NCBI GenBank assembly: GCA_025934635.1
Contig: JAICWX010000010.1
Coordinates: 1 to 58,369 of the forward strand
DNA length: 58,369 bases
Origin: Streptosporangiaceae bacterium
Lineage (GTDB): Bacteria > Actinomycetota > Actinomycetes > Streptosporangiales > Streptosporangiaceae
Direction of reading: 5' to 3'
The notes beneath the pieces were generated by a model. That model was not told the DNA's origin. It searched no databases and worked only from the letters and a program-made list of their open reading frames with translations. Of the stretch, positions 2,257 through 58,369 are shown piece by piece. Position 1 is the stretch's first letter; every line of letters begins with the position of its first letter. The position numbers and the translations under genes were made by a program.

Positions 2257-3261
2257 TCATGCCGCCCCGGCCCCGTGCAGTCGCTCGGCGGCGAGGTCCG
2301 CGAAGGCCGGGTCGGTTTCCGCGGTGAACGCGCGGCGGCCCAGCCCGACCGCCGCCACCGAGGCCGAGCACAGCCCGCCGAACGGCTCCCACACCACGTC
2401 ACCGGGCTGGGTGACCGCCGCGATCAGGCGTTCCATGAACTCGAGCGGCTTCTGGTTCAGGTGCGCCGAGCTGGCCGCGGTCGGGCTGTACACCCGCGGC
2501 GCGGCCCGGCGCAGGGTGCCCTTCAGCCGCTCGGTATCGTGCAGCGGCCGGCGGGACCAGACGTTGGTGACCCCGTGCGCGTGCTGCCAGCGGTACCGGA
2601 GCGCGTCCCAGGCGGCGGCGGTGACCGGCCGCTCGCCGTCGAGCGAGTAGTAGGGCCACATCGCCGGCTGGCCGTGCGCGTTGGCGTAGGCGGCCAGCCG
2701 CTGGGTCATTTCCCCCGGCGGCCAGTACCACAGCGAGTCCTTGGTCAGGTACTTGCGGGTGGCCGCGTTCTTCACCCCGCACGCCTCGTTGGCCCGCTGC
2801 AGCGACAGCCCGGACCGGGCCCATTCGTGCCGGACCCACTGCTTGGGCGGCATCGGCCCGTCCGGGCCGGTGATGGTGAAGGCCCGCTGGTAGAACGCGC
2901 ACACCTCGGTCACGACGGGGAACTGCCTGATGGTCTGGCCGTTCACGTTGCCCGCGATGTGAGCCAGGCCCTTGTCCCAGACGATGAGCTGGATGTAGTC
3001 CCAGCCGTGTTCGGCGAGCACCGGGTGAACGTTAGCCCAGCCAAGCTCGGTATTCCAGAACCACAGCGTGGTCGCCGGGCCGGCCGCCGCCGACCAGGCC
3101 GCGATGTGCGGCCGGTACCAGTGCGGGAGGGTGCCGGGGCCGATGGTGTCGCCATGGAACCCGCGGACGCCGTAGGCGCCGTCGCTGATGATCGTCGCGG
3201 GGGCCGGCCAGTCCGGGTAGGCATCGAGCACATCACCACGGAACAGGTCAAACCCTCTCAT
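2257..3261 (-). CDS. Site-specific DNA methyltransferase, N4/N6 beta-type, solo
   Basis: Predicted amino-methyltransferase acting on DNA adenine or cytosine with S-adenosylmethionine. At 334 aa the motif order is that of the beta class. The catalytic motif comes early and is written SDGAYG (about residues 26-31) where the canonical form is [16 protein letters not shown] follows near residue 270, and the AdoMet-binding VWEPFGG...GLGRRA motif near the C terminus. No endonuclease, specificity subunit or Vsr is nearby, so it looks like an orphan enzyme. The ATG lies 3 bp after the sdaA stop, so translation is probably coupled to sdaA, an unusual partner. Target sequence and activity cannot be read from sequence. 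Confidence 0.8.
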
Positions 3262-18855: not shown

Positions 18856-18931
18856 CCGTCCTCCCCTGTGCGAGAGCCGTACACGGCTAGTGTATAACTT
18901 TTGACAGTTATGGACATCCCTGGACTGTGGA

Positions 18932-18943
18932 TAGGATCGAGTT
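18932..18943 (+). promoter_or_regulatory. Putative leaderless promoter of the STAND gene
   Basis: TAGGAT (18932-18937) is followed by six bases and then the GTG start at 18944, the spacing expected if transcription begins at the start codon. No Shine-Dalgarno is present. A TGGACA at 18911-18916 could be a poor -35 (15-bp spacer). TTGACA at 18901 is too far (25 bp) for this -10. Confidence 0.45.
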
Positions 18944-21835
18944 GTGGCACCGTCTAGCCGGGGTTCCGTTCCGCCCGGACCGATCACCGATCTCTTCGAC
19001 CGTCTCGACCAGTTGCATCTGGCGGCGGGGCGTCCCTCGATGCGGGAAATCGCGACCAGGGCTGGCCGGGACAAGATCAGTTCCTCGACGGTGCACAACG
19101 TATTCCGCGCTACCCGCGTGCCTCGCTGGAACTTCCTTCAGGAGATCGTGACAGCACTGGGCGGAGATACCGATGTGTTCCTGCCCCTGTGGCAGGCGGC
19201 GTGGCAAGCAGAAAACGAGATCGAGTCGCCCCTGACGGTGCCATCCAGTAGAACGTCAACGCTCCTCGGCCAGCCGATGTCCGGCGCTCCGGAGGGGCTG
19301 TCAAAGCGGATCTGGTCCCCCGAGATCCCCCCTCGCAACCCGAACTTCACTGGCCGGGCCGCGGAGTTGGAAACGCTGCGTACCAATCTCACCGACCGCC
19401 GTCGACCGCAAGCAGCCGCCCAAGTCGTGTCCGGGGTGGCTGGTATCGGCAAGACGGAGATAGTCACGGAGTACGTTCACCGGTACCTGGACCAGTACGA
19501 GATCATCTGCTGGATCAGGGCTGAGCGTCCTGATCAGGTCAGAGACGCGCTAGTCAGGCTGGGTCAGCGACTGGAAGTGCACTCATCGGCACTGGGAAGC
19601 GATCGCGACAGGATGATCAGTGCGGTCTTGCGCGGCCTTGAGACAGGAGTAAGGCTGAACTGGCTGCTTGTCTACGACAACGCTGGCCAGCCCCGTGACC
19701 TATCGAGGTACATGCCTGCCGCTGCGCCGAATGGCCACGTGATAATCACCTCGCGGCTAAGTAACTGGCCTGGCTATATCTCGGTAGATGAGATAGAAAT
19801 CTTGCCCTTCACTAAGTCGGAGGCAACTAGCTTCTTGCGTCAAAGGGTCCCCGAGCTCGGCGCGGATCGAGAGCTTGCTGAGACAGAAAATCACCAGACA
19901 AACAGCAAGGTGGAGCGCCTGGCTGAACTGCTCGGTCACCTGCCTGTCGCTATCGAACTCGCCGCTGCCGACTTGACCGAGACCGGACAGAGCATCGACG
20001 ACTACATAGCCCGTTACAAGAAAGGCATACAACAAGTTCCGAACGAGTTGCGCTCAGACTTCTCGCTTCCCGTCATGGCGACATGGGCGAAATCTACATC
20101 TCTACTTACCGCCGATGCCGAAAATTTGCTCAATCTCTGCGCCTTCTTCTCGCCAGAGCCGATCGCAGTGGAATTGCTCCTGCAGAACGCACATGCCGTA
20201 AGTCAACCGTCAGAGCTCAGTGATCTACTATCCTCACGCTATCGTTTTCGGCGGGCCCTCCGGCTGCTGAGCCGATTGTCCTTGATCAAGGTTGACTGGG
20301 CACGAGACGAAGTTCAGGTACAGCGGGTAGTCCGGGAGGCTGCCAGGGGTCGGCTCAGAACAACCGATCAGGCTATGTTCGCGAACTACCAGAGAGTCGT
20401 CGGCAGCGTGCTAGCCGCGTCCAACCCCGGCAATCCAGATCGCCGCGCCAATGACGCGATCTATGACCTGTCGCTGCCGCATCTCGAATTTGATGACGAT
20501 CTCTACAAGGCGGCAAGCCCGGAACTACGCCAGCTCACTATCGACCAAGTGAGACGACTAGAGCTTCGCGGCCGGCATATCGAGGCGGTCCGGTTCGGAC
20601 AGGACGTACTGCAGGCATGGAAGACTCGGCTTGGTCCGACAGACTTGCAGGTGCTCAGGTTGGCAGTGGAAGTGGCGATCGCGATGCGGCTAGCCGCCCA
20701 AGCCGCGGACGCCCGGCAGCTAACCCGGGAAACACTCGCCACGCTGCGCGCGAATTACGGCGAGGAGAACGAGGTTGCCTTGCTGTGCGCGAACGTCTAC
20801 GGCGCCGATCTGCGTGCACAGGCCCAGTATGAGGCGGCGCTTGAGTGGGACCAGGATTTGCTGCCGAAGTTCGAGCGCGTCTTCGGCCCCGCCCACGAGC
20901 GGACGCTGAACGTCGGCCACAACATAGCGTCCGACTTCCGGTGGCTCGGCCGCTTGGCAGATGCCCTCCGGGCCGATCAGCGGACCTTTGAAGGCCGCCG
21001 GAGCGCCTTGGGTGAAAACGATATGCGGACCCTTGTTTCTCGTGACGCGGTCGCGGTCGATCTGCGATTCCTCGGCCGCTACGAGGAATCATTGGACATC
21101 GCTCGCGAGGTAGCCCGATCGTTTGCCGCGATGGGTGGCCGCGACACCTCTGACTGGCTACACGCGCGCAAGGGATTCGCCGCATCGCTGCGCAAGGCCG
21201 GACATCACTGGGATGCTCTCCAGGAGAGCGAGGATGTAGTTCGGCGCTACACCGACCACCTCGGTCCGGATCATGTCTACACGCTGAGGGCAGCCAACAA
21301 CCTCGTCAATGACCGCCGGGCGGTGGGAGATCTTGCTCACGCCGAGGAACTTGGCCGAGAAATCCATGAACGGTGCCGGAAACCGGGCGTACCTCTCGAC
21401 GCTGGTTACGCGGTGCTCGTCAGCCTCGCGTCCGTGCTCCGCGCTGGGGGACACTCGGAGGAAGCACGCCAGTATGACGCGCAGGCCAGGGACGGGCTCA
21501 TCGGAACCTTCGGCGCCCTGCACCTGTTCAGTTTGGTAGCAGGCGTCAACTACGCCACCGACCTGGCTGCTTGCGGCGATATAGCCGAAGCGGCCGGGAT
21601 CGGCCAGGAAACCCTGGATAAGTGTCGGCAGGCTCTTGGCGAGGATCATCCGGTCACGCTGATGGCGGCAGCCAACCTAGCCCTCGATGAGGCCACTGCA
21701 GGAGAAAGGGCCGTGGCGGAGGAGTTGCTGGCTGACACCCTACGCCGATATGAGGAAACGCTGACCGCCGAACATCCTGAGGCTCGGGCAGCTGCACAGC
21801 AGATCAGGCTCACTGCGGAGATCGAACCCTACTGA
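18944..21835 (+). CDS. STAND-type regulator/NTPase: HTH, NB-ARC and TPR domains
   Basis: Protein of 963 aa. The N-terminal helix-turn-helix-like domain is at about residues 12-80 (SMREIATRAG, SSSTVHNVFRA). The NB-ARC NTPase (about 133-430) has Walker A GVAGIGKT at 164-171, Walker B LLVYDN, the sensor HVIITSR and a GLPLA-like GHLPVAIELAA. The rest is a TPR array in which an approximately 42-residue unit repeats (FGPAHERTLNVGHNIASDFRWLGRLADA and related). Such proteins are switches that oligomerise on sensing a ligand and act in regulation, secondary metabolism or phage defence. No separate effector domain is fused. Codon use is noticeably less GC-biased than the flanks, suggesting transfer. 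Confidence 0.85.
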   Translation: MAPSSRGSVPPGPITDLFDRLDQLHLAAGRPSMREIATRAGRDKISSSTVHNVFRATRVPRWNFLQEIVTALGGDTDVFLPLWQAAWQAENEIESPLTVPSSRTSTLLGQPMSGAPEGLSKRIWSPEIPPRNPNFTGRAAELETLRTNLTDRRRPQAAAQVVSGVAGIGKTEIVTEYVHRYLDQYEIICWIRAERPDQVRDALVRLGQRLEVHSSALGSDRDRMISAVLRGLETGVRLNWLLVYDNAGQPRDLSRYMPAAAPNGHVIITSRLSNWPGYISVDEIEILPFTKSEATSFLRQRVPELGADRELAETENHQTNSKVERLAELLGHLPVAIELAAADLTETGQSIDDYIARYKKGIQQVPNELRSDFSLPVMATWAKSTSLLTADAENLLNLCAFFSPEPIAVELLLQNAHAVSQPSELSDLLSSRYRFRRALRLLSRLSLIKVDWARDEVQVQRVVREAARGRLRTTDQAMFANYQRVVGSVLAASNPGNPDRRANDAIYDLSLPHLEFDDDLYKAASPELRQLTIDQVRRLELRGRHIEAVRFGQDVLQAWKTRLGPTDLQVLRLAVEVAIAMRLAAQAADARQLTRETLATLRANYGEENEVALLCANVYGADLRAQAQYEAALEWDQDLLPKFERVFGPAHERTLNVGHNIASDFRWLGRLADALRADQRTFEGRRSALGENDMRTLVSRDAVAVDLRFLGRYEESLDIAREVARSFAAMGGRDTSDWLHARKGFAASLRKAGHHWDALQESEDVVRRYTDHLGPDHVYTLRAANNLVNDRRAVGDLAHAEELGREIHERCRKPGVPLDAGYAVLVSLASVLRAGGHSEEARQYDAQARDGLIGTFGALHLFSLVAGVNYATDLAACGDIAEAAGIGQETLDKCRQALGEDHPVTLMAAANLALDEATAGERAVAEELLADTLRRYEETLTAEHPEARAAAQQIRLTAEIEPY

Positions 21836-29193: not shown

Positions 29194-32142
29194 CTACGAC
29201 TCCGTGTCCGGGAAGGAGTCGAACAGGCGCAGCCGGTGGGCCGCCGCCGCGGCCTCGCCGCGGCTGGTCACGCCGAGCTTGCCGAGGATGTTGGACACGT
29301 GCACGCTGGCGGTCTTGGCCGAGATGAACAGCTCGGCCGCGATCTCGCGGTTGCTGCGCCCGGCCGCGACCAGCCGGAGCACCTCGAACTCCCGCGTGGT
29401 CAGCCCGAGCCGGTCCGGCCCGGGGCCCGGCGTGCCCCCCTCGGTGTCCGGGTCGAGCGAGATGCGGGCCCGCCGGGCGAGCAGGGTGATGTCGTCGCTC
29501 AGCGGCCGGGCGCCGAGCGGCTGGGCCAGCGCGGCGGCGCGGCGCAGCCGGGCGGTGGCGCCGTCGCGGTCGCCCGCACTCAGCGCGGCCTCGGCCGACC
29601 GCAGCAGGGCCGCCGCCAGCGGATAGGGCTGGCCGGCCAGCTCCCACGCCCGCGCCGCCTCGTCCCAGGCGCCGTCACCGGCCCGGTCCGCCTCGGCGGC
29701 GAAGGTCAGCCGGCAGGCCTGCTGGAACAGCCCGTCCGCGGTGAACGCGGCCGCCTCGGCGGCCAGGCGGCCGTGCAGCACCGCCGCTCGCGCGGCCAGC
29801 GTGCCCTCGCGGGCGGCCACCGCGCACGCCCGGGCGCCGGCCACCAGGATCGGCCAGGCGTAACGAGGGCTTTCCGGCAGGGGATAGCGATCGAGGGCGT
29901 CCTCGACCAGGGACAGGGCCTCGGCCGGCCGCTGCTGCGCCAGCCGCAGCGTGGTCTCCAGCCGGACCAGCGGCAGGTGGTACTGAGGGTCGTACCGGGC
30001 GCCGTCGGTCACGGACCGGATCGAGGCGGCGAACCCGGCCGCGGCGGTCAGGTCTCCCCGGGCCAGCGCGATGTCGCCGGCCAGCCGCCACATGCAGGCG
30101 CGGTTCAGCCGGGGCGGGAAGAGCCGCAGCGCGCGCTCGATGACCTCCCCGGCCTCGTCCCACCGGCCCAGCGACGCCAGCGGCTCGGCCACGTTGTTGG
30201 CCAGGATCGCGCCGTAGGTCCGGGCGACCCCGTATTCGCGGGCGCCCGCGAGTCCCTCGTGCGCCACCGCGGCGGACTGCTCGTGCAGGCCCGCGCCTTC
30301 CAGCATGTCCGATTCCGTGATGGCGGCGCTCAGCAGCGGGCGGAAGGCCCTCGCCCGGGTGGCGATCGCCCGGGCCTGGGCCAGCAGTTCCCGGCTCCGC
30401 TCCCCGTTCTCGCCGACCGGCTCGGCGCAGGCCAGGGTGACCAGGGCCGCCGCCTCGGTAGCGGCGTCGCCGGCTCGCCGGGCGGCGGTTACCGCTTCTT
30501 CCGCGGCCGTCCGGAGCTCGGGGTTATCCCAGCCGTTGTGCACCTTCAGGGTGTAGTGGGCCAGCGCCTCGAGTACCCGGGCCCGCGCCGGGCTCGGCGG
30601 TTCCGCCGGGACCAGGCGGACCGCTTCTTCCAGGTCCCCGGCGTAATCCTTCCGGCCCAGGTGGTGCTTCAGGTAGCCGCGGGTCCGGAGCAGGAGCGCG
30701 GCCCGGACTGGCTCCGCGGCGGCGTCGACCTCCCGCAGCGCGGCCTTGGTGAGCAGGATTCCCCGGTCGTTCTCGCCGGCCAGTTCGGCGGCCCTGATCG
30801 CCTCCTCCAGCACGGCCACGTGATCGGCGCCGATCCGCTCCGCGGCGTCCGGCACCTGCTCCCACAGGTCGAGCACCCGCGACAGCATGGCCAGTTGCTC
30901 CGTGTAGGCCAGCGCGCGGCCCGCCTGACCCGCCGCCTGCCAGGCGCTGACCAGCGCCCGGGGCATGTCGTGGGCCGCCTGCCAGTGCCGGGCCTGCTCG
31001 CCGGGAGCCCGGCCCGGCATCACCAGCGCCGGGTCGGCCGCGATGACCTCGGCGAACCGGCTGTGCACCTGGCCCCGTTCGCCGGGCAGCAGCTCGTCGT
31101 GGACGGCCTCGCGGATCAGCGCGTGCCGGAACACGTAGCCGTCGGACTCGGCCCGCAGCACGTTGGCCGCCACGGCCGGGCGCAGCGCCCGGCCCAGCGC
31201 GGCGCCGTCCAGGCCGGTGACCGCGGTCAGCAGGCCGTGACCGATCCGTTCGCCGCCCGCGCTCGCGACCCGCACTACCTCCTGGGTCTCTTCCGGCAGG
31301 CGCCGCAGCCCGGCCATCAGCAGGTCGTGCAGGGACTCGGGCAGCCCGGAGTCCGACTCGCCGTTTCCCACCAGGGCCTCGGTGAACAGCGGGTTGCCCT
31401 CGGCGCGGCGGTACACGGCCGCAACCAGGTCATCATCCGGTTCGCGGCCGGTGAGCTGGGCCACCAGCTGGCCGGTGTCCTGGCGGCTGAGCCGGCCGAG
31501 ATCCATCCGGGTAACCCGCTCGATCCGGTCGAGCTCGGCCAGCAGCGGGCGCAGCGGGTGCGTGCGGTGCAGGTCGTCGGAGCGGTAGGTCACGACGATC
31601 AGCACCCCGTCCAGCGATCCCTGGTTGCGGATCAGGAAGGCCAGCAGGTCCCGGGTGGACTGGTCGGCCCAGTGCATGTCCTCGATGACCAGCACCACCG
31701 GGCCGGCCTCGGCCAGGTGCTCCAGCATCTGGAGCATCTGCTCGAACAGCCGGGCCCGCGCCTCGCCCGCCTCGTCCGGCCCGGCCGCGGTACCGAACTC
31801 GGGCAGCAGCCGGGCCAGTTCCCGGCCGCTGCCGCCGGGCAGCAGCGCCGCCACGCCGGCCGCGCCGAGATCACGCACCAGCTCGCGCAGCACGGCGGTG
31901 AAGGGGGCGAACGGCAGGCTCTCGGCGCCGAGTTCCAGGCAGCCGCCGGTCAGCACCCGCGTCCCCGCGCCGCGCGACCGGTCGGCGAACTCGCCGACCA
32001 GCCGCGACTTTCCCACCCCGGCCTCGCCGGCCACGATAACGGTCGACGGCCGGCCCTTGGCCGCCTCGGCCAGCGCGGTTTCCAGCGTCGCTAGCGGCCC
32101 CGAACGCCCCACCAGCACCGGACTGGATACCTGCACTGCCAC
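29194..32142 (-). CDS. LAL-type LuxR-family regulator with AAA ATPase domain
   Basis: Large ATP-binding LuxR regulator, 982 aa from GTG 32142 (GTG 32136 equally possible). The N-terminal ATPase has LVGRSGPLATLE, Walker A GEAGVGKS and Walker B VVLVIEDMHWAD. A long helical TPR-like middle follows, and a C-terminal LuxR HTH LTTREFEVLRLVAAGRSNREIAAELFISAKTASVHVSNIL. MalT-like regulators sense a small molecule and activate nearby or distant operons. It is convergent with glgX-treYZ, so control of maltodextrin use is possible but not shown. The frame upstream of 32142 translates the 104-bp repeat and is not coding. Confidence 0.9.
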   Translation of the reverse strand: MAVQVSSPVLVGRSGPLATLETALAEAAKGRPSTVIVAGEAGVGKSRLVGEFADRSRGAGTRVLTGGCLELGAESLPFAPFTAVLRELVRDLGAAGVAALLPGGSGRELARLLPEFGTAAGPDEAGEARARLFEQMLQMLEHLAEAGPVVLVIEDMHWADQSTRDLLAFLIRNQGSLDGVLIVVTYRSDDLHRTHPLRPLLAELDRIERVTRMDLGRLSRQDTGQLVAQLTGREPDDDLVAAVYRRAEGNPLFTEALVGNGESDSGLPESLHDLLMAGLRRLPEETQEVVRVASAGGERIGHGLLTAVTGLDGAALGRALRPAVAANVLRAESDGYVFRHALIREAVHDELLPGERGQVHSRFAEVIAADPALVMPGRAPGEQARHWQAAHDMPRALVSAWQAAGQAGRALAYTEQLAMLSRVLDLWEQVPDAAERIGADHVAVLEEAIRAAELAGENDRGILLTKAALREVDAAAEPVRAALLLRTRGYLKHHLGRKDYAGDLEEAVRLVPAEPPSPARARVLEALAHYTLKVHNGWDNPELRTAAEEAVTAARRAGDAATEAAALVTLACAEPVGENGERSRELLAQARAIATRARAFRPLLSAAITESDMLEGAGLHEQSAAVAHEGLAGAREYGVARTYGAILANNVAEPLASLGRWDEAGEVIERALRLFPPRLNRACMWRLAGDIALARGDLTAAAGFAASIRSVTDGARYDPQYHLPLVRLETTLRLAQQRPAEALSLVEDALDRYPLPESPRYAWPILVAGARACAVAAREGTLAARAAVLHGRLAAEAAAFTADGLFQQACRLTFAAEADRAGDGAWDEAARAWELAGQPYPLAAALLRSAEAALSAGDRDGATARLRRAAALAQPLGARPLSDDITLLARRARISLDPDTEGGTPGPGPDRLGLTTREFEVLRLVAAGRSNREIAAELFISAKTASVHVSNILGKLGVTSRGEAAAAAHRLRLFDSFPDTES

Positions 32143-32167
32143 CCAGCCAGCATAAGAGCTAGCCCCT

Positions 32168-32271
32168 CCCGCGAGCCAAAGGGCGCCGTCGCTGCCTGGA
32201 CTGAGGAGCGAGGAGCTTGCGACGAGCGACGAGGGAAGGCAGTGACTCAAGGGCGCCCGGAGGCGAGCGGG
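32168..32271. repeat. Structured 104-bp repeat, copy 1
   Basis: Nested stems: CCCGC-GA-GCC (32168-32177) with GGC-GA-GCGGG (32262-32271); GGGCGCC (32181-32187) with GGCGCCC (32252-32258); CTGCCT (32192-32197) with AGGCAG (32237-32242). These enclose a 39-nt core beginning GGACTGAG and containing GAGCGAGGAGCTTGCGACG. The second copy (37291-37394) has the same length and nearly the same core but different, still complementary stems. It overlaps the last codons of the FAD monooxygenase gene and lies upstream of the LAL gene. Confidence 0.85.
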
Positions 32272-33464
32272 AAAACAGAGTAGTGCGGCAGCTTGATGGC
32301 GGTGGCGGTGCGGGTGGAGAGGTGCTTGACCAGGGCCCGGGCCGGGGGGAGGTAGGGGAGCAGGCGGAAGAAGCGGTTGCGCTGGGCGATCTTCTTCTCG
32401 GTGGGCGGGGCGAGGAAGTCGGCGCCGCCGCGGGCCTGCTTCTGGCCGCGGGCCACGTAGGGCCGGAGCAGCCGCTCGTAGCGGTCGTAGGCGACGCGGT
32501 AGTCGCCGTTCGCCGCGGCCAGTTCCCCGGCCAGGACGTAGGCCGCGACCACGGCGGTGCCGGTGCCGTTGCCGCCAGGGCCGGCGGCGTAGCCGGCGTC
32601 GCCGGTGAGCGCGACCCGGCCGGCCGACCAGCGGTCCAGCCGCACCTGGCTCACCGAGTCGAAGTAGAAGTCGTCCGCCGCGGGCAGCTGGCTCAGCAGG
32701 TCCGGTACGTGCCAGCCCACGTCGGCGAACACGTCGGCCAGGATCTTGCGCTGCTGGGCGGAGTCGCGGTGGTCGAACGCGAGGGGCCGCCCGCCGGGGG
32801 CGGCGAAGAAGAACGTCGCCACCGCCTGCCCGGTCCGCGGTGCGCTGAACACGGCCGCGGTCTTGCCCGGCACGCTGTACAGCAAGCCCTCGTGGTCCAG
32901 GCCGTACCGGTCGGGCACGCCGAAGATGGCGACGTACAGGCCGAGATCGGCGACCGGGTCCGGCTGGCCGCCGAAGGCCAGCGCGCGTACCCCCGAGTGC
33001 AGCCCGTCGGCCCCGATGACCAGGTCGAAGGTGCGCGGCGCGGACCGGGCGAAGGTGACGTGCACGCCGCCGGCGTCCTGCCGCAAGGCGGTCACCGAAT
33101 CGCCGAACAGGTACTCGGTGCCGTCCCTGGTCGCCTCGTAAAGGATCTGGCCGAGGTCGCCGCGGAGGATCTCCACGTCACCCGCGAAGATGCCGGGCGG
33201 CATGCTCGCCACCGGCCGGCCGTCGCCGTCCACGTAGGTAGTGGCGGACAGCTGGGTCTGGCACTCCCTGACCTGGTCCAGGATGCCCATCTGGGCCAGC
33301 ACGGACCGGTGGGCGGCGCCGCGGAAGTCGACCGCGTAGCCGCCGCCGCGCAGTTGCGGCGCGCGTTCCACCACGGTCGGGCGGAATCCGTGCCTGCTCA
33401 GCCACCAGGCCAGGGCGGGGCCGGCCACGCTCGCCCCCGAGATCAGGATGTTCTGGTTCTCCAT
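32247..33464 (-). CDS. FAD-dependent aromatic monooxygenase
   Basis: Class A flavoprotein monooxygenase, 405 aa, that would hydroxylate an aromatic or polyketide-like substrate using NAD(P)H and O2. Motifs are the N-terminal Rossmann motif ISGASVAGPALAWWL, the DG motif LVIGADGLHSGVR and the GD motif ALTGDAGYAAGPGGNGTG. The family includes TetX-like and rifampicin monooxygenases, so drug modification is one option. It is divergent from a TetR gene with shared operators, the usual layout of an inducible detoxification pair. The start has no clear Shine-Dalgarno but TATAGT lies seven bases upstream, suggesting a leaderless transcript. Confidence 0.88.
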   Translation of the reverse strand: MENQNILISGASVAGPALAWWLSRHGFRPTVVERAPQLRGGGYAVDFRGAAHRSVLAQMGILDQVRECQTQLSATTYVDGDGRPVASMPPGIFAGDVEILRGDLGQILYEATRDGTEYLFGDSVTALRQDAGGVHVTFARSAPRTFDLVIGADGLHSGVRALAFGGQPDPVADLGLYVAIFGVPDRYGLDHEGLLYSVPGKTAAVFSAPRTGQAVATFFFAAPGGRPLAFDHRDSAQQRKILADVFADVGWHVPDLLSQLPAADDFYFDSVSQVRLDRWSAGRVALTGDAGYAAGPGGNGTGTAVVAAYVLAGELAAANGDYRVAYDRYERLLRPYVARGQKQARGGADFLAPPTEKKIAQRNRFFRLLPYLPPARALVKHLSTRTATAIKLPHYSVFPLASGRP

Positions 33465-33473
33465 GGCCAGAAC

Positions 33474-33513
33474 TATACAAACGTGTAAGACATTTGTATA
33501 GGACGTTTGTATA
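33474..33513. promoter_or_regulatory. TetR operators in the divergent promoter
   Basis: Three copies of one half-site: TATACAAACGT (33474-33484), ACATTTGTATA (33490-33500) and ACGTTTGTATA (33503-33513). The first and third are exact inverted repeats. The first and second form a 27-bp near-palindrome with one mismatch. They cover the probable -10 of the monooxygenase and lie just before the TAGGAT -10 (33523-33528) of the tetR gene. Confidence 0.75.
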
Positions 33514-33534
33514 AATCTTCGCTAGGATGGCGCC

Positions 33535-34113
33535 ATGAGCCATCGTGAGGATCTGCTCGCCGGCGCCGTCCAGTGCCTGCGGGAGAAGGGCTACGCGCAC
33601 ACCACCGCCCGCGACATCGTCGCGGCCTCGGGCACCAACCTCGCCTCGATCGGCTACCACTACGGCTCGACCAAGGCGCTGCTCAACGCGGCCGTGATCG
33701 CGGCCATGGAGGACTTCGGCGCCGAGATGGCCAAGGCCATCGGCGACCCGAACCCCGGCCAGGGCGCGCTGCAGCGCTTCGAGCAGTTCTGGACCCGGGT
33801 CATCGACTCGTTCCGGGCCAGCAGCCAGGTGTGGCTCGCCACGTTCGACATCTTCACCGTGGCGCAGCGCGACCCGGAGGTGCGCGCCGCCGTGGCCGAC
33901 GGCCTCGAGGACGGCCGGAGGCTGTGGGCCCGGCTCCTCTACGGCGTGGACGACGCCGACCAAGACACGGTGCGGGCGATCGGCTCACTGCACCAGGCGC
34001 TGGTCAGCGGCGTCCTGGTGCAGTGGCTGATCGACCCGGAGCGGGCCCCCTCGCCCGCCCAGCTGGCCCTGGGCCTGCGGGCGATCGCGGATCAGGTCGC
34101 CGCGGCCAGCTAG
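33535..34113 (+). CDS. TetR-family transcriptional regulator
   Basis: Repressor of 192 aa. The N-terminal HTH (HREDLLAGAVQCLREKGYAHTTARDIVAASGTNLASIGYHYGSTKALL, about residues 3-48) is canonical for TetR. The C-terminal helical domain would bind the inducer. It is divergent from the FAD monooxygenase and probably controls it and itself through the repeats at 33474-33513. TAGGAT ends six bases before the ATG and there is no ribosome site, so the mRNA is probably leaderless. Confidence 0.93.
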   Translation: MSHREDLLAGAVQCLREKGYAHTTARDIVAASGTNLASIGYHYGSTKALLNAAVIAAMEDFGAEMAKAIGDPNPGQGALQRFEQFWTRVIDSFRASSQVWLATFDIFTVAQRDPEVRAAVADGLEDGRRLWARLLYGVDDADQDTVRAIGSLHQALVSGVLVQWLIDPERAPSPAQLALGLRAIADQVAAAS

Positions 34114-34128
34114 CCGGCCCGGCTAGCT
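34108..34128. terminator. Bidirectional terminator between tetR and lipoprotein gene
   Basis: Perfect palindrome with 10-bp arms AGCTAGCCGG and CCGGCTAGCT around one base, between two convergent stop codons (34113 and 34131). Confidence 0.6.
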
Positions 34129-34130
34129 AC

Positions 34131-34712
34131 CTAGCTGGCGCAGCTCTGCTTGGCCGCCGTGACCACCGAGGTGAACACCCACGGGTTCAGCGGGGCGCCC
34201 TCGCCCTGCAGGGCCCTGGGCAGGCCGTCCGGGAACCGGAAGGTGGCCCGGGTCCAGAACCAGCGGGTACCCGCGGATGAGCAGGCCTTCACCGGGTTGC
34301 TCAGCGTGACCACCGCGGGCACGTGGTAGAGCGGCCCGGCCGCGCAGTTCGGGTTGCAGCCGTCCAGCTCATAGGTGCCCGTCCCGACCGCGTCGGCGGC
34401 CGACCAGGTGTTCCACGTCATCTTGGCCAGGATCGCGGTGGAGTCACCGGACAGGACGCAACCCGACGAGCACCGCGGCGCGTGCAGCACGGTCCCGTTG
34501 ATGTCCTGTCCCTCGGCCAGGAAGGTGCTGTTCGCCGTCGGTCCGGTAGCGGGCGCCGTGGCCGGTGCAGTGCCCGGCGGCGTGGTCGGCCCGGTGACGG
34601 GCCCAGTGGCAACCGAGCCGTTTCCGTTACAAGCGGTCGCCAGCAGCGCGGCGCAAACAACCCCGGCCCAGCCCGCCAGCCGGCGGGCCCTGCCTGCATT
34701 AGTCGTCAACAT
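34131..34712 (-). CDS. Putative secreted lipoprotein
   Basis: Protein of 193 aa from ATG 34712 (AAAGGG about ten bases upstream; the TTG three codons earlier is less likely). The signal peptide ends in the lipobox LATAC, so the cysteine is probably lipidated and the protein anchored outside the membrane. A Thr/Pro/Ala-rich linker (about residues 34-60) precedes a globular domain with six more cysteines (RCSSGC, DGCNPNC, KACSS, KQSCAS), which may form disulfides. No domain family recognised. Confidence 0.7.
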   Translation of the reverse strand: MLTTNAGRARRLAGWAGVVCAALLATACNGNGSVATGPVTGPTTPPGTAPATAPATGPTANSTFLAEGQDINGTVLHAPRCSSGCVLSGDSTAILAKMTWNTWSAADAVGTGTYELDGCNPNCAAGPLYHVPAVVTLSNPVKACSSAGTRWFWTRATFRFPDGLPRALQGEGAPLNPWVFTSVVTAAKQSCAS

Positions 34713-34965
34713 CGATTCCAACCCTTTCAGCTCTCAAGGCTTCTCAACTTCGAGGGGAGGAGGCTGAATGAGGGGTGGTGATACACCCGTTCGGGACCAA
34801 AGTTCGCGCCGAACCGGCTACGGCGGTCTAGCGGCCGAACGGGGTTGGCTCTTCGCCTAGCCGAAGCACCCGGATGGGATGGCCAGCGGCGCGGCGGCGA
34901 TCCTGGTCGACGGACATGCTCCGCACAGTAGACCAGGGCTGGGGTTATATGAATACTCTCCAGTC

Positions 34966-36315
34966 ATGAAGGCTGTCCCTGAGCACCGCGTCTGGCGGAA
35001 CTGGGCCGGGACCGCGACGGCGGCCCCGGTCCGCTGGTGTCGTCCCCGCAGCGAGGCCGAGATGGCGGCCGCGGTCAAGGACGCCGCGGCGGCCGGGCTG
35101 ACGGTGCGCGCGCTCGGCAGCGGGCACTCGTTCACCGCGGTGGCGGCGACCTCCGGGGTGGCGCTCGACCTGTCCGGCTGGACCGGGATCACCGCCGCCG
35201 ACACCCGGACGGGCCTGGTCACCGTGCGGTCCGGGACGCCGCTGCGGGCCCTCAACGCCGAGCTGTGCGGCCTCGGCCTGGCCATGGCCAACCTGGGCGA
35301 CATCGACGTGCAGACGGTGGCCGGGGCGCTGGCCACCGGCACGCACGGCACCGGGGCGCGGCTCGGCGGGCTGGCCACCCAGGTCGAGGCGCTCGAGCTG
35401 GTGCTGGCGGACGGCTCGGTGGTCACGTGTTCGGCCTCGTCCCGGCCCGAGCTCTTCGCCGCGGCGCGGATCGGTCTGGGCGCCCTCGGCGTGGTCACCA
35501 CCGTGACGCTGCGCTGCGTGCCGGCGTTCACGCTGCTGGCGGACGAGCGGCCGATGCCGGTCGAGGAAGTCCTCGAGCAGTTCGACGCGCTGGCCGAGGC
35601 CAACGACCACTTCGAGTTCTACTGGTTCCCTTACGGGAGCAATGCCCTGGTCAAGCGGAACAACCGGGTTCCCGGGGGCGCCGCGGCGGCGGGGGCTGCC
35701 GGGATCGGAGCCGTGCCGCCGCCGTTGCCGGCCTGGCGGCGGTTCTGGGAGTTCGAGGTGATGGAGAACGCCGGCTTCGGGGCGCTGTGCCGCCTGGGCC
35801 GGGCCCGGCCCCGGCTCATCCCCGCGCTGAACCGGTTCTCCTCGTCCGCGCTGTCCGCCCGGACCTACACCGAGCGGTCGGACCGGGTGTTCGTCACCCC
35901 GCGCCGGGTGCGCTTCACCGAGTCCGAGTACGCGGTTCCACGTGAATCACTGGGGCACGTGATTTCCGAGTTGCGCCGGGCCGTGCCCCGGCTGCCCGAC
36001 CCCGTCATGTTCCCGGTCGAGGTCCGGGTGGCGGCCGCCGACGACATCTGGCTCTCCACCGCCTACGGCCGGGAGTCCGCCTACGTCGCCATCCACCAGT
36101 ACGCCGGGTTGCCCTACCAGGACTGGTTCGACCGGTTCGAGTCCATCGTGGCCGAGGTGGCGGGACGTCCGCACTGGGGCAAGATGCACTCGCTGGACGC
36201 CGCGCGCCTCGATGCCCTGTACCCCCGGTTCGGTGATTTCCGCCGCGTCCGGGCCGAGGCCGACCCCGAACGGCGATTCGGCAATGCCTACCTGACCCGC
36301 GTCCTGGGGGACTGA
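34966..36315 (+). CDS. FAD-linked aldonolactone/alditol-type oxidase
   Basis: VAO/PCMH-fold flavoenzyme, 449 aa from ATG 34966. The N-terminal FAD domain contains RALGSGHSF and GTHGTG. The C-terminal D-arabinono-1,4-lactone oxidase domain ends in the typical LDALYPRFGDFRRVRAEADPERRFGNAYL. Relatives oxidise L-gulono-1,4-lactone, D-arabinonolactone or alditols with oxygen as acceptor. The substrate cannot be fixed here. TACTCT lies six bases upstream of the ATG and there is no ribosome site, suggesting a leaderless mRNA. The frame upstream to 34879 is not needed. Confidence 0.88.
   Translation: MKAVPEHRVWRNWAGTATAAPVRWCRPRSEAEMAAAVKDAAAAGLTVRALGSGHSFTAVAATSGVALDLSGWTGITAADTRTGLVTVRSGTPLRALNAELCGLGLAMANLGDIDVQTVAGALATGTHGTGARLGGLATQVEALELVLADGSVVTCSASSRPELFAAARIGLGALGVVTTVTLRCVPAFTLLADERPMPVEEVLEQFDALAEANDHFEFYWFPYGSNALVKRNNRVPGGAAAAGAAGIGAVPPPLPAWRRFWEFEVMENAGFGALCRLGRARPRLIPALNRFSSSALSARTYTERSDRVFVTPRRVRFTESEYAVPRESLGHVISELRRAVPRLPDPVMFPVEVRVAAADDIWLSTAYGRESAYVAIHQYAGLPYQDWFDRFESIVAEVAGRPHWGKMHSLDAARLDALYPRFGDFRRVRAEADPERRFGNAYLTRVLGD
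35934..35949. other. Degenerate parS-like site inside the oxidase gene
   Basis: GGTTCCACGTGAATCA matches the bacterial parS consensus (TGTTTCACGTGAAACA) at 13 of 16 positions with an intact CCACGTGA centre. parS sites cluster near oriC, where this window appears to lie. A chance match in coding sequence is quite possible. Confidence 0.25.
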
Positions 36316-36328
36316 CCCCGGCCGGGTG

Positions 36329-36431
36329 CCGCACCGGCCGCGGAAACCGCACCGGCCGCGAAACCGCACTCGCCGCGGAAAACTCACCTGGCCGCGGAAA
36401 ACTCACCGGCCGCGGAAGCCGCACCCGCCGC
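36329..36431. repeat. Tandem repeat, about six units of 17-19 bp
   Basis: Units begin at 36329, 36347, 36364, 36383, 36402 and 36419. Each contains GCCGCG(G)AAA, or a truncated form in the last, preceded by CCGCACC or CTCACC. CCGCGG is itself palindromic. It starts 13 bp after the oxidase stop codon. Confidence 0.8.
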
Positions 36432-36584
36432 TCTTCTGTGGCGGGCGGCCGGCTCACGCGGCGGGTGATGTCCGTGGTGCGGTGGCTCCCTGCCGCTGGT
36501 GTCCCGGGTGGCGCGCTTAACAGCATCGATGGAGCATCGATGCTGCTGGCACGACATTGATGGGTCATCGATGCCGTTACCGGG
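36428..36584. repeat. Dispersed CATCGATG repeat, copy A
   Basis: Shares with 58152-58276 the blocks CCGCTCTTCTG, GGCGG-TGATG-CCGTGGTG, CATCGATGGAGCATC and CCGTTACC-GG in the same order. This copy has a perfect inverted repeat with 11-bp arms (CAGCATCGATG) and a 3-nt loop at 36521-36545, then a second CATTGATG...CATCGATG pair. Confidence 0.75.
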
Positions 36585-36938
36585 ACCCTTGTGAGGGCCG
36601 GGATGGGTGACGGGAGGAACCTGTGGTGCGGATGCGGATGCTGAGGGCGGAACCCGGGCCGCAGGCAAGCCGCCGGACCTCTGATTTTCAAATGAGCCAC
36701 ACCCGACCCGGCGCGCGCCGGCGACTTGTTACCAGCTGCTTACGCGAGCCAGCGGGGCCGAACTCGGCTCGGCGGCTCCTCGTAGTCCAGGTTGAGTGGC
36801 CAGTGTCCGCGGCCGCCTGACCACCGCCTTCTATCACGAAGGCGGCCGCGGCACCGGTCACGCCGATGGTCGTGCCCTGCCGGAGTGGAGACCAGAGGTT
36901 CGTGCTGATCCCATTCGACAGAGAGGCCGGGGAGCCAG

Positions 36939-37286
36939 ATGGTAACGACGTGGTCGGCGGCAGGGGACATGGAGGGAAGCGGTTCGGCTGTGGGCCGGAT
37001 CGCGTTGGTCGTGATCGCGATCCTCGCCGTCCTGGCGTACGCGATACTGCAGCTCAAGGCGCGATCGCGCCGGGCCGCCGGGACGCGCCGGTACGACCCC
37101 TGGGACTGGCGGACGTACCCAGAAGACGGCGGCCCGGCCGACCAGGCGCTGTCCGGTCCCGAGGAAGGCCGCCGTCCCGAGTGGCGGTACGGCTACCCGC
37201 CCGGCTACGAGCCGTACCCGCTGTACGAATCGGCCGAGCTTCCCTGGACCGACCGCACCAAAGCCGCCCGCGACCAAACCTCCTGA
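36939..37286 (+). CDS. Small single-pass membrane protein
   Basis: Protein of 115 aa with one membrane helix (about residues 18-38, GRIALVVIAILAVLAYAILQL) followed by a basic stretch (KARSRRAAGTRR) and a Tyr/Pro-rich cytoplasmic tail (YGYPPGYEPYPLYESAELPW). GGAG lies four bases before the ATG. It is followed after 4 bp by the structured repeat copy 2 and then by the HerA-like gene on the same strand. Function unknown. Confidence 0.6.
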   Translation: MVTTWSAAGDMEGSGSAVGRIALVVIAILAVLAYAILQLKARSRRAAGTRRYDPWDWRTYPEDGGPADQALSGPEEGRRPEWRYGYPPGYEPYPLYESAELPWTDRTKAARDQTS

Positions 37287-37290
37287 ATCT

Positions 37291-37394
37291 CCCGCGCGCC
37301 AAAGGGCCGCGCTCCCGTCTGGACTGACGAGCGAGGAGCTTGCGACGAGCGAGGAGGGAAGACGGGAGCTAAAGGCGGCCCGGAGGCGAGCGGG
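37291..37394. repeat. Structured 104-bp repeat, copy 2
   Basis: Same architecture and length as 32168-32271: CCCGC..GCC with GGC..GCGGG (37291-37300 and 37385-37394), GGGCCGC (37304-37310) with GCGGCCC (37375-37381), and TCCCGTCT (37313-37320) with AGACGGGA (37360-37367). The core differs from copy 1 at two positions, which exchange G...C for C...G (37328 and 37353). It lies between the small membrane protein and the HerA-like gene. Confidence 0.85.
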
Positions 37395-37399
37395 ATAGA

Positions 37400-40300
37400 A
37401 TGCACCGGTACAAGGCAAACGTGCGGATTGGCCGCGTTCGGGCGGTCCTCGCGGAGACGGTGCGGAGCGTCGTGACTTTAGCGTGGAGCGCACTGAACGA
37501 GCTCGGCGCGTACCGGATCACCGAGATCCCGCGGCGGGCCGGATCCGGCACGAGACGGTACCGGCCGGATGAGCCGGGTGACACGGCCCGGACGCAGCGG
37601 GTCGCCGCGCTGACCGCGGCGTATCACGCCGGTGCGGAAGCCAAGGGGAACGGTGCGGGCGCCCTGGCGGTCGGCTGGGTGCGGCACCATGCGGGCGGCC
37701 CGGTTCAGGTCCTCGCCGCGGGCGCGGCGCTGGTCGGCAGCGAGGACGACGAGGGCGCCTACCTGACGCTGCCCGCTGGGGCGCGCGCCGAGCCGCTGCC
37801 GGGTGGCGCGCTGGCCGGCCTGCTGGCGCAGCTGCCCGCCTGGCGCGCGATCGCCGGGATCAGCGATGGCCTGCTCGCCAGCGGCCTGCTGGCCGACGGC
37901 CTGCCGGGCGGCGGTGCGCTGCGGATGTCCGGCCAGCTGCCGCCCACGCTGGAGGAGTGCCTGCTGGCGGTGTGGCCGGGTCCCTTCGGCTGGCTGCTCG
38001 TCGCGGAACCGCTGAGCCCGGCCGAGACCGGCGAGATGGCGGGCGAACTGGCCCGGCTCGGGCGGTACGCCGCGGATGACCGGGACCGCTTCCCCGAACG
38101 GGCCGTGGCGGACCGGCGGCTGAGCCTGCGTCACGCCGAGGTCCGGGCGGGCCTGTCGGCCGGATGGTGGCGGGTCCGGCTGCTGGCGGGCGGTGCCGAC
38201 ACCGGGGCCGCGTCGCGGGTGGCCGGGCTGGTGTGCGCCTCGGCCGACCTGGACGGGCTGCCGTACGCCCTGGTCCCGGCCGGCGGCGATCCGGCCGGGC
38301 GCGGGCTCCGGGAGATCCTGGACGACCAGGCGCCGGTCACGTCCGGGGGCGACGCGGTGCCGGCGCACCCGTTCTACGCCAGCACCGGGCTGCTCGCCGC
38401 GCTGACCCGGCCGCCCGGGCACGAGGTGCCCGGGATCCGGCTGACGGTGCGGTCCGAGTTCGACGTCACCCAGGAGAGCGGGCCCGGCGCCGGGGCGATC
38501 ACCGTCGGCGCCATCCTCGACCGGTACCGCCGGCCGGCCGGCCCGCTCGCGCTGCCGCTCGGCTCCCTGCACCGGCATGTGCTAGTCAGCGGTGCGGCCG
38601 GCTCCGGTAAGTCGCAGACCGTCCGGGCCATGCTTGAGGCCGCGGCCAGGGCCGGGATCCCGTGGCTGGTGGTGGAGCCGGCCAAGGCGGAGTACCGGCT
38701 GATGGCCGCGCGGCTGGCCGGGGCCCCGGGCCCAGCCGGCCCGCTCGCGCGGGTGGTGCGGATCCGGCCGGGTGAGTCGGACTCGATCGCGGCCGGCCTC
38801 AACCCGCTCGAGCCCGCGCTGGACGCCGACGGCCGCCGGTTTCCGCTGCGGGCCCACGCCGACCTGGTCAAGGCGCTGTTTCTCGCGTCCTTCCGGACCG
38901 AGGATCCGTTCCCCCAGGTGCTCAGCGCGGCGCTGACCCGGGTGTACGAGGAAGCGGGCTGGGACCTGGCGCTGGGCGAGACGGCGGTAGCCGACCCGAA
39001 CCCCGGCTATCCCAGCCTCACCGACCTGCACCGGGCCGCGGTCCGGATCGTCGCCGAAATCGGCTACAGCCAGCAAGTCGCCGACGACGTGCTCGGCTTC
39101 GTCCGGGTGCGGCTGTCGAGCCTGCGGCTCGGCACGTCCGGCCGGTTCCTCGAAGGCGGCCACCAGCTCGACTTCGGCCGGCTGCTCGGCACCAACGCCG
39201 TGATCGAGATCGAGGACGTGGACGACGACGGCGACAAGGCCTTCCTGACCGGGACCGTGCTGATCAGGCTGGCCGAGCACCTCCGGATGGCGCACCGGGC
39301 GGAGCCCGCGGGTCCGGGGCTGCGTCACCTGACCGTCCTGGAGGAAGCACACCGGCTGCTCCGCCGACCGGAAACCGGCGCTCCGGCCGGGGCGGCGACC
39401 CAGGCGGCCGAGATGTTCGCCGGGCTGCTGGCCGAGATCCGGGCCTACGGCGAGGGGGTCGTCCTCACCGAGCGGATCCCGGAACGCCTGCTCGGCGACG
39501 TCATCAGGAACACCGCGGTGAAGATCACCCACCGGCTGCCCGCGGCCGGGGACCGCGACACGGTAGGCGCGACGATGAACATGACGCCGGCCCAGAACCG
39601 GTTCCTGGTCACGCTCGGGCCCGGCGAGGCGGCGGTGTTCACCGACGGCATGGACTTTCCGCTGCTGGCACGGATGCCGGCGGAGGGGCCAGCGAAGGGA
39701 GCGGCGGGGGAGGGAGCGACGACCGCCAGCCCGGCCGGGGTGGTCCGGCCGCGCAGCATCACCTGCGGCGCCGAATGCTCCGCCCGGCCGTGCACGCTGC
39801 GGGACATGCGGGTCGCCCAGCGTGCCCTCGAGGAGTACCCGGCGATCCGGCTGTGGGCGGAACTGTCCGTCCTCGCCCACCTGACCGGCTGGCCCATGCC
39901 GGTGCCACGCACGACGCTGCTCTCGCTGCTGCAGGTGATGCCGGACCGGCTGCGGGACTGCGCCATCTCGCACGGCGTCGACACAGCGGTCGGCGTCCGG
40001 ATACCGGTGATCGCCGGGCGGATCAGCCCGGTCGGCCTCGCCTCCCACGTCAGCACCGCGATCAGGTCCCGGATAGCGCGCGGCAGCTGGCTGTGCCAGC
40101 GGGAGGAGCCGAAGTGGCTCGCCCCGGCCTACAAGTGGACGCTGGTCCTGGACGCGCTCAAGTCGGCCGACCGGAAGCAGCCGGGAGCCGGCCCGCACCC
40201 GCGCAGCGCGGAATGGGAGCGGACGTACGGGCAGGCGATCACCGGTGACACCTGCGCGCGCCAGGTGGGGACGGTGCAGCGCTGGTACGACGCCGCGCAG

Positions 40301-40498
40301 CGGGACGGCTGGGAGGTACGGGCGGTGGCGTTCGGCGTGGACCCGTTCTCCGGCGCGGAACGGGCCGTCGGAGCCCGCTCCGAGGATGACGATTTCGACG
40401 AGCGCCTGTCCGGCTACCTCGACCAGTTCGTCGACTGCCAGTGGCCGCGGCTGTACCTGGCCGCCGACCCGCTCGGAGATCCTCCCGAGCGGCGCTAG
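37400..40498 (+). CDS. Large HerA/DUF87-type ATPase
   Basis: P-loop ATPase of up to 1032 aa. Walker A LVSGAAGSGKSQTV is near residue 400. Walker B HLTVLEEAHRLL is near 650. A HerA-like region follows (GVVLTERIPERLLGDVIRNTAVKITHRL, then LVTLGPGEAAVFTDGMDFPLL). N-terminal to the motor are about 390 residues of unrecognised sequence. After it comes a cysteine cluster C-x3-C-x4-C (ITCGAECSARPC) and a further 230-residue C-terminal domain. HerA ATPases are hexameric DNA translocases paired with NurA or, in defence systems, with SIR2 or DUF4297. No such partner is adjacent. The start is uncertain because no strong ribosome site is visible. Confidence 0.75.
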   Translation: MHRYKANVRIGRVRAVLAETVRSVVTLAWSALNELGAYRITEIPRRAGSGTRRYRPDEPGDTARTQRVAALTAAYHAGAEAKGNGAGALAVGWVRHHAGGPVQVLAAGAALVGSEDDEGAYLTLPAGARAEPLPGGALAGLLAQLPAWRAIAGISDGLLASGLLADGLPGGGALRMSGQLPPTLEECLLAVWPGPFGWLLVAEPLSPAETGEMAGELARLGRYAADDRDRFPERAVADRRLSLRHAEVRAGLSAGWWRVRLLAGGADTGAASRVAGLVCASADLDGLPYALVPAGGDPAGRGLREILDDQAPVTSGGDAVPAHPFYASTGLLAALTRPPGHEVPGIRLTVRSEFDVTQESGPGAGAITVGAILDRYRRPAGPLALPLGSLHRHVLVSGAAGSGKSQTVRAMLEAAARAGIPWLVVEPAKAEYRLMAARLAGAPGPAGPLARVVRIRPGESDSIAAGLNPLEPALDADGRRFPLRAHADLVKALFLASFRTEDPFPQVLSAALTRVYEEAGWDLALGETAVADPNPGYPSLTDLHRAAVRIVAEIGYSQQVADDVLGFVRVRLSSLRLGTSGRFLEGGHQLDFGRLLGTNAVIEIEDVDDDGDKAFLTGTVLIRLAEHLRMAHRAEPAGPGLRHLTVLEEAHRLLRRPETGAPAGAATQAAEMFAGLLAEIRAYGEGVVLTERIPERLLGDVIRNTAVKITHRLPAAGDRDTVGATMNMTPAQNRFLVTLGPGEAAVFTDGMDFPLLARMPAEGPAKGAAGEGATTASPAGVVRPRSITCGAECSARPCTLRDMRVAQRALEEYPAIRLWAELSVLAHLTGWPMPVPRTTLLSLLQVMPDRLRDCAISHGVDTAVGVRIPVIAGRISPVGLASHVSTAIRSRIARGSWLCQREEPKWLAPAYKWTLVLDALKSADRKQPGAGPHPRSAEWERTYGQAITGDTCARQVGTVQRWYDAAQRDGWEVRAVAFGVDPFSGAERAVGARSEDDDFDERLSGYLDQFVDCQWPRLYLAADPLGDPPERR

Positions 40499-42539: not shown

Positions 42540-43172
42540 CTACGCGTCCGGCGTCGTGACCCTCCCGTTGACCTCTGAGCGCCGGGCCTCATCGGTTACG
42601 GGCTCGCCCGTCTCCGGTGACTCGGTGGCGTTCTTGGCCTCGGTCGTGGCGCTGGTGTAGCGCCGCCGCATGGCGACGGCGGCTCCAGCGCCCGCGGCGG
42701 CGGCTACGGCGCCCGCGCCGAGCAGCCAGCGCCAGCTCAGCAGCCGCCGGATGCCGGTCCGCTTCGGGCCCGGCTTGACCTGGTCGGCCGCCGACATCAG
42801 GGCCGACGAGACCTTGGGCGCCACGGTGCTGGTGACAGCCTCCGCGGCGTCCTCGAGCTTGGGCGCGATCCATTCCCTGGCTCCGTGCACGGCGTCTTCG
42901 AGCTTGGGTGTAGCCCACTCCCTGGCACCCTGCACAGCGTCTTCGAGCTTGGGCGCGGTCCACTCCTTAGCGCCCTGCACGGCGTCATCGAGCCGCGGCG
43001 CGGCCCATTCCCTGGCACCCTGAACGCCCTGTCGGACTCCCTGGACCGCTGTCGTTCCCGCGCGCTTACCGGCTGGAATGGCCTGCGCGGCGACGTCCGC
43101 GGCGCGATCCTTCGCGCGGGCGCCGATCGCAGCCACCCCATCGGTGGTGCGGTTGGTCTTGATAAGGGACAC
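42540..43172 (-). CDS. Amphipathic-repeat protein with C-terminal membrane helix
   Basis: Protein of 210 aa (GTG 43172, GGGAGG eight bases upstream). Residues 48-108 hold four copies of a 15-residue unit of the form GA(R/K)EW-x-x-P(R/K)L(E/D)DAV-x, predicted to form a long amphipathic helix, followed by a related EAVTSTVAPKVSSAL segment. A single membrane helix (about residues 148-168, WRWLLGAGAVAAAAGAGAAVA) and a charged tail follow. The pattern resembles LEA- or apolipoprotein-like helices that lie along membranes. It is divergent from ppiA. Specific function unknown. Confidence 0.75.
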   Translation of the reverse strand: MSLIKTNRTTDGVAAIGARAKDRAADVAAQAIPAGKRAGTTAVQGVRQGVQGAREWAAPRLDDAVQGAKEWTAPKLEDAVQGAREWATPKLEDAVHGAREWIAPKLEDAAEAVTSTVAPKVSSALMSAADQVKPGPKRTGIRRLLSWRWLLGAGAVAAAAGAGAAVAMRRRYTSATTEAKNATESPETGEPVTDEARRSEVNGRVTTPDA

Positions 43173-58064: not shown

Positions 58065-58151
58065 GCTACCCGCTCGGCACCGCAGGCCCCATCACCTGGC
58101 CCGTCCAGGCCGGCGGGGCCGGGTTCAGGTCGGCGTGATGCGGCAAGGGGG

Positions 58152-58276
58152 CCGCTCTTCTGCGGTGAGCGTCCAGCTCGCGGGGCGGCTGATGCCCGTG
58201 GTGTGCCTGGTGCCAGCCCTCCGTACTCGGGTGATGCAGCCAACGACATCGATGGAGCATCAATGCCGTTACCAGG
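58152..58276. repeat. Dispersed CATCGATG repeat, copy B
   Basis: Shares ordered blocks with 36428-36584: CCGCTCTTCTG, GGGCGGCTGATGCCCGTGG, ACATCGATGGAGCATCAATG and CCGTTACCAGG. It is about 30 bp shorter, with one CATCGATG/CATCAATG pair instead of two. Confidence 0.7.
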
Positions 58277-58369
58277 AGCTGCTGGTCGCCGGCCTCGGCG
58301 CGGCCGGGGCCGCGGTGACCGCCGGGGAGCGCGGCGAGCTGCGGTCCCTGCTGGCCGCCATGGACCTGC

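Follow-up and report, generated by a model that had tools for sequence, protein, structure and literature searches.

A dispersed intergenic hairpin repeat with a near-invariant GA-rich core in actinomycete genomes

Our analyses of a 58,369-nt stretch of DNA from a Streptosporangiaceae bacterium (assembly GCA_025934635.1, contig JAICWX010000010.1; hereafter the window, meaning the whole stretch at its full length) concerned a structured element that occurs there twice, each time beside the end of a gene (Table 1). A preliminary description, made from the letters alone, had placed two 104-bp copies at these positions, and both an alignment of the copies (83% identity across 107 nt, 32166-32272 vs. 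37289-37395) and a direct-repeat search found them there. The pair is the longest direct-repeat family among the 20 listed of the window's 51. The 24-nt heart of the element's core matched exactly two sites in the window at up to three mismatches and none in 100 shuffles.

Table 1. Copies of the element and their neighbouring genes in the window
Feature	Position	Strand	Remarks
Element copy 1	32168..32271	+	Covariance-model score 132.9 bits (one of the seven training sequences); antisense to both neighbouring genes
Element copy 2	37291..37394	+	Covariance-model score 137.0 bits (training sequence); sense, flanked by two + strand genes; ortholog in G001
Copy 1, near-invariant core	32196..32238	+	CTGGACTGAGGA...CGACGAGGGAAG, with stacked GA/GA internal loops
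Copy 1, apical loop	32216..32219	+	CUUG, from the fold; tip variable across the wider family
Copy 1, A-rich tail	32272..32282	+	AAAACAGAGTA; like the 3' tail ACACAG/AACAGAG of other copies, by eye
Copy 2, near-invariant core	37319..37361	+	
Copy 2, A-rich tail	37395..37402	+	TAGAATGC
Open reading frame (ORF) with FAD_binding_3 domain (PF01494)	32247..33464	-	Stop codon falls within copy 1
LuxR-type (GerE) regulator with AAA_16 domain	29194..32142	-	Begins just past copy 1; start codon approximate
Small ORF, no Pfam match	36939..37286	+	Ends 4 nt ahead of copy 2
1032-aa ORF, weak below-cutoff ATPase matches	37400..40498	+	Lies after copy 2; its listed start is not conserved

Folding of the + strand gave free energies of -62.7 kcal/mol (z -5.3) for copy 1 and -66.3 kcal/mol (z -6.6) for copy 2. 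Within the 33-pair structure, 25 pairs are identical in the two copies and eight differ; all eight have changed on both sides and still pair, including the swap of G32205-C32230 in copy 1 for C37328-G37353 in copy 2. This is the pattern that had first been reported from the letters, of helices that differ yet stay paired. A single GA/GA internal loop had also been reported, in the outer stem of copy 1; GA/GA is indeed present, but in both copies the fold contains a whole series of such loops along the rod. Read on the sense strand, the rod consists of an outer stem, a 5-nt bulge, an inner stem, GGA/GA, CU/GG, stacked GA/GA loops and a variable tip, the sequence of which varies between copies. 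The core, UGGACUGANGA / GANGAGGGAAG flanked by stacked GA/GA internal loops, is near-invariant: both halves, GGACYGANGA and GANGAGGGAA, were exact in 44 of 49 distinct rows, which were located with a covariance model (CM) rather than with a pattern and include the seven copies on which the model was trained. In one genome (G040), many right halves read TGACGAGG.

The element measures ~105 nt in the window and ~125 nt in genome G091, where nested copies set its ends at ~20 nt before and ~50 nt after the core. It is longer, with a leader and a tail, in some genomes, and copies in several genomes carry an extra small hairpin plus a CAATnnACACAG-type tail that ends in ACACAG. The core of the hammerhead ribozyme is CUGANGA facing GAAA. 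Although CUGANGA is present in the element, it lies opposite GANGAGGG, and the copies have no Rfam match; we rejected assignment to the hammerhead class.

A covariance-tolerant pattern scan of genome contigs picked out 11 loci. Five are clear copies, all in a single soil metagenome-assembled genome labelled Nocardiopsis (G001), a genus within Streptosporangiales. The other six (in Frankia, Roseivirga and four more) were rejected by eye, their stems being missing. Of the five clear copies, one is orthologous to window copy 2, with flanks that match on both sides and 88% identity across the region. A CM search of relatives, a step that the preliminary description had proposed, was carried out with a model trained on seven copies, both window copies included, and matched 46 of 149 genomes (G001 and relatives) at E up to 0.01. 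Some genomes hold at least 24 copies, these per-genome counts being lower bounds, with 24 candidates scored per genome. A pattern for the core only found the element in 35 of the 149 genomes, with up to 26 copies per genome, and the reversed-pattern control found none. Many similar copies are thus dispersed within single genomes, as they are in small dispersed intergenic repeats. In an even draw across the class, 15 of 394 genomes carried the element, so it looks lineage-restricted.

No Rfam 15 family matched the copies: the whole window at the gathering threshold yielded just a tRNA, positions 32000-37600 at E up to 10 yielded three weak miRNA matches, all of them away from the copies, and no match at E up to 1 was obtained for 11 relative loci. 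Plasmid and phage searches gave no matches or short weak ones. Among viral contigs, a first pattern found nothing and a second found two. One of these viral-classed contigs (L093, IMGVR_UViG_3300044710_000133) has a real-looking copy at 3859-3904; upstream of it is the gene for an SNF2 helicase, which bears an intein with a LAGLIDADG domain. On the other (L092) the rest of the element is missing.

Pairing is maintained as the arms diverge. In the seven-copy alignment, 95.6% of cells were paired and covariation was 0.343, compared with 0.155 after shuffling and at most 0.063 in slid versions. The 49 distinct CM-aligned rows were 94.6% paired, with double-sided changes at 27 of 33 pairs and 215 double-change cells versus 61 in shuffles, none of 500 shuffles scoring as high; these rows were aligned by fitting to the CM, and the alignment leans towards the model. 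An arm-pairing test was independent of the CM, copies being chosen by core sequence alone and eight positions taken on each side of the core. Once copies less than 60 nt from a locus end had been set aside, 133 remained, reducing to 87 distinct arm pairs; 94.8% of positions were paired, versus 67.6% with re-dealt arms and a maximum of 71.1% in 1000 shuffles. Orthologous copies behaved similarly. Between copy 2 and its G001 ortholog, 27 of the 33 pairs are the same; of the other six, five have new letters at both partners and still pair, and the outermost is lost in G001. Across seven orthologous comparisons of ten core-adjacent positions, 54 were the same, four had changed on one side, five had changed on both sides and seven were unpaired in one partner. 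The sense strand out-folded the antisense strand in all four elements tested, as would be expected were selection acting on the strand with GA loops and not on the one with TC loops; the sense z was modest in one of them (L145, -2.3), and in another (L164) the antisense z of -5.7 nearly equalled the sense z of -6.0. The fold of a single-stranded hairpin is under selection, with pairing kept while sequence changes. Selection for structure, first proposed from two copies, now extends well beyond them, and what would have spoken against it, further copies that lose pairing or a match to a known family, came out the other way, with pairing kept and no Rfam match.

We next considered where copies lie relative to genes. 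Copies were counted in regions fetched for containing a match, in about a dozen genomes and at some individual loci, a non-random sample in which tandem copies count separately and loci without the regular-expression core (L045, L059, L153, L154, L194, L205 and L209) are omitted. By the strands of their neighbours, the 130 copies fall into (+,+) 63, (+,-) 26, (-,-) 16 and (-,+) 12, with seven inside genes and six at edges standing outside the four-way table. Counting with loci drawn from the arm-pairing test left these numbers unchanged. Between co-directional neighbours the element is thus in the sense orientation 63 times and antisense 16 times (p = 9e-8). No more than 36 nt separate the core from the upstream stop codon in 31 of 89 cases, which places that codon in or against the element. 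Of 75 downstream + genes, 17 begin 35-60 nt past the core, 14 of them with ATG and some, by eye, within the tail. The preliminary description had put both window copies at a gene end before another gene. Copy 2, which starts 4 nt past the stop codon ending at 37286, follows the sense, downstream rule; copy 1 departs from it in being antisense to both neighbours. Copies also lie within ribosomal protein operons: G091 and G084 each have one between the genes for L11 and L1, G084 has another between those for L23 and L2, and G035 shares both G084 copies.

This placement bears on the possibility that the element is an ordinary strong terminator without a U-tract, multiplied by recombination, with a conserved core that merely makes a good hairpin. 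In the accessible part of PMC8269248, U-lacking (I-shaped) terminators are, like the element, G+C-rich hairpins at gene 3' ends without a U-tract, and many structured 3' ends of Streptomyces clavuligerus lack one. The location of copies at gene ends, mostly in sense, and the 26 of 117 classified copies between convergent genes suit such a terminator, as does a terminator-like G+C-rich hairpin that replaces the element at one orthologous G035 site. A run of four or more T within 75 nt past the core, as an intrinsic terminator would have in its U-tract, was found in only four of the 130 copies. Moreover, a terminator does not need a near-invariant internal-loop sequence, the element differs from such terminators in its dispersal, the ribosomal protein genes on either side of some copies are expected to be co-transcribed, the 17 downstream genes noted above start 35-60 nt after the core, and at L158 a terminator-like hairpin adjoins the element. 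The ribosomal operons and the conserved core are difficult to reconcile with a plain terminator, and we consider this explanation unlikely. A family of independently transcribed small RNA genes would also have conserved structure and many copies, but the tie to gene ends and the sites between ribosomal protein genes make it very improbable.

Copies are dispersed, in tandem (periods of 110-149) and nested, and the element is apparently mobile. In G091, five copies are inserted at the same position within the tip of another copy, between GGAGC (GTGC in L141) and (GAG)GAACGAGC or a close variant; in four of the five, joining the two host halves restores a recognisable element, with a few joint letters missing or ambiguous, and the left half in L139 is partial. 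Regarding the terminal repeats of miniature inverted-repeat transposable elements, the element has a short inverted repeat in its outer stem, yet the tail lies outside this stem. Nine of 13 G084 copies had an orthologous stretch among the G035 regions fetched; six of these nine sites are occupied (one with a mutated core), one was judged a remnant and two are empty, so that occupied and empty orthologous sites both exist, as for small dispersed intergenic repeats. In addition, copy 2 is absent from G003 upstream of a 72% identical gene. In G001, the ortholog of the FAD-binding neighbour of copy 1 is 91-92% identical and the element is absent, but similarity stops there, so that locus is not a clean empty site. 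Two further observations concern element-bearing loci. At L022 (G001:C313:8822-8877), a half element cut within its tip lies immediately ahead of a full copy. The stretch between two inverted copies in G084 (L164 ~2640-3150) is only 72% identical to its counterpart at that place in G035 (L221 ~18920-19270), compared with ~95% in the outer flanks; it may have been exchanged.

The 3' part of the element often recurs: behind 30 of the 130 copies, some of the copy's own 3' sequence appears a second time, and an automatic rule found ACA nearby at 19 of these 30 junctions, compared with a fraction of 0.112 of random positions. At least three of the 19 (L087, L141 and L195) passed through an ACA outside the tail, although the L087 and L195 junctions do lie at the tail in a separate analysis of tandem copies. 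Template jumping off a fixed RNA 3' end would yield such junctions, as would slippage. They fit, together with the sense bias and the absence of visible target-site duplications, a retroelement resembling short interspersed elements (SINEs), the RNA of which would be reverse transcribed into new sites from its 3' ACACAG tail, with a group II intron-type reverse transcriptase supplied in trans. Such a bacterial SINE-like element would be borne on mRNA and copied via RNA into the hairpin tips of gene ends, its own included, and its insertions would often bring stop and start signals, letting operons survive. However, 5'-truncated copies standing alone seem to be rare (three among the 25 BLAST places listed for G084, with 40 of 120 candidates scored, two of the three shorter than 30 nt), and 3'-truncated pieces ahead of full copies also occur. 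A tail-pattern scan of 400 kb gave one match, on an element, with a pattern that is insensitive and misses most known tails. RVT_1, found in 62 of 149 genomes, had no match in the element-bearing drafts G010, G013, G035, G040, G063, G083 and G086. We regard the retroelement as improbable, somewhat more so than the terminator, and copying from the ACACAG tail into hairpin tips as equally doubtful.

The other candidate mover is the RAYT (Y1 HUH) transposase of REP/BIME-like elements. Like REPs and REPINs, the element is an imperfect palindrome, dispersed in many, mostly intergenic, copies. It is several times longer, however, at more than 100 bp compared with the 20-40 bp given for REPs in the accessible part of PMC3733652, and many carriers have no Y1_Tnp match: the domain was found in 35 of 149 genomes and had no match in the element-rich drafts G013, G016, G035, G052, G063, G083, G084 and G091. 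The link to a RAYT-like transposase raised in the preliminary description was not borne out, and of all the explanations weighed here a RAYT-moved element is the most improbable. Five drafts (G013, G035, G063, G083 and G086) had neither RVT_1 nor Y1_Tnp at E up to 0.001, and with no match in several element-bearing genomes we rejected both RAYT and reverse transcriptase as in-genome movers. A version carrying a gene, sought as an unpaired left and right half on one contig, was not seen in G091, G084 and G010, where half-element matches (left/right) numbered 28/32, 15/14 and 14/14. G040 gave 35 left and 13 right halves, a deficit that arises because the pattern misses the right-half variant described above.

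Two details of the locus complete the description of the window. The ATG at 37400, listed as the start of the ORF after copy 2, is not conserved in the G001 ortholog, so the real start is probably a GTG near 37460-37472. Two other repeats in the window were also noted. One is present in two copies, at 36427-36554 and 58151-58277 (68 + 50 nt; 76% and 72%), contains a palindrome around GCATCGATGGAGCATCGATGC and differs from the element in sequence. The other, at 42833-43057, has a spacing of 45 nt and four overlapping 90-nt copies that are 60-78% alike to the reference.

Taken together, the best reading of these data is a small dispersed intergenic repeat, like ERIC and NEMIS in outline. In the accessible part of PMC2229807, ERIC (IRU, RU-1) is a 127-bp enterobacterial intergenic repeat that is reported to be co-transcribed and to lower upstream mRNA stability in an orientation-dependent manner, and the NEMIS/Correia elements of Neisseria (~107 and 155 bp) form mRNA stem-loops that are proposed targets of RNase III. 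The element shares with ERIC that it is a short, apparently non-autonomous intergenic repeat that folds as RNA, and with NEMIS its size class, repetition and stem-loop. It differs from ERIC, compared by description, in occurring in another phylum and in its GA/GA rod, near-invariant core and nesting in its own tip, none of which is in the description of ERIC in that part of the source. From NEMIS it differs in a duplex broken by GA loops and in having no visible target-site duplication. Our searches of open-licence papers turned up no description of the element, including in the accessible parts of PMC3733652, PMC2267715, PMC8269248 and PMC2229807; of six actinobacterial terms sought in PMC3733652, none occurs there.

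Specifically, we consider it likely that the element is a non-autonomous, ERIC/NEMIS-like repeat and that, once transcribed, it forms a hairpin selected for a place at 3' ends or between cistrons. It would be transcribed within the host mRNA, where the hairpin would mark a 3' end or intercistronic gap and shape processing, stability or partial termination; it may protect the mRNA, cut it or limit read-through. The GA-rich core would be a putative binding site for a host protein, the sense bias could reflect either an RNA role or insertion into transcribed 3' regions, and spread would depend on an enzyme supplied in trans. The preliminary description had offered an RNA element and a palindromic mobile repeat as alternatives, and both fit jointly.

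Several points weigh against this interpretation. Window copy 1 is antisense to its genes, as are 16 of 79 copies in co-directional settings, and gene positions outside the window come from an unvalidated GC3-based caller. The orthologous copies are imperfectly paired: the positions unpaired in one partner make up seven of 70, some of them within the bulge, and true single mismatches also occur next to the core. Compensatory change in a palindrome can in part arise from DNA-level template switching, although this process would be expected to erase GA mismatches. As to mobility, the only two absences lie in one G035 region, the five nested G091 insertions show no target-site duplication, and the searches for RVT_1 and Y1_Tnp found no mover, leaving the moving step without a mechanism.

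Dozens of actinomycete genomes thus carry a strongly covarying structured element without a match in Rfam 15. To our knowledge, there is no earlier example that combines a near-invariant GA-rich core with apparent mobility into ribosomal protein operons. Such a core would be expected to have its own dedicated binding partner. Should the RNA role be confirmed, the element would be a mobile repeat that spreads ready-made mRNA-level signals.

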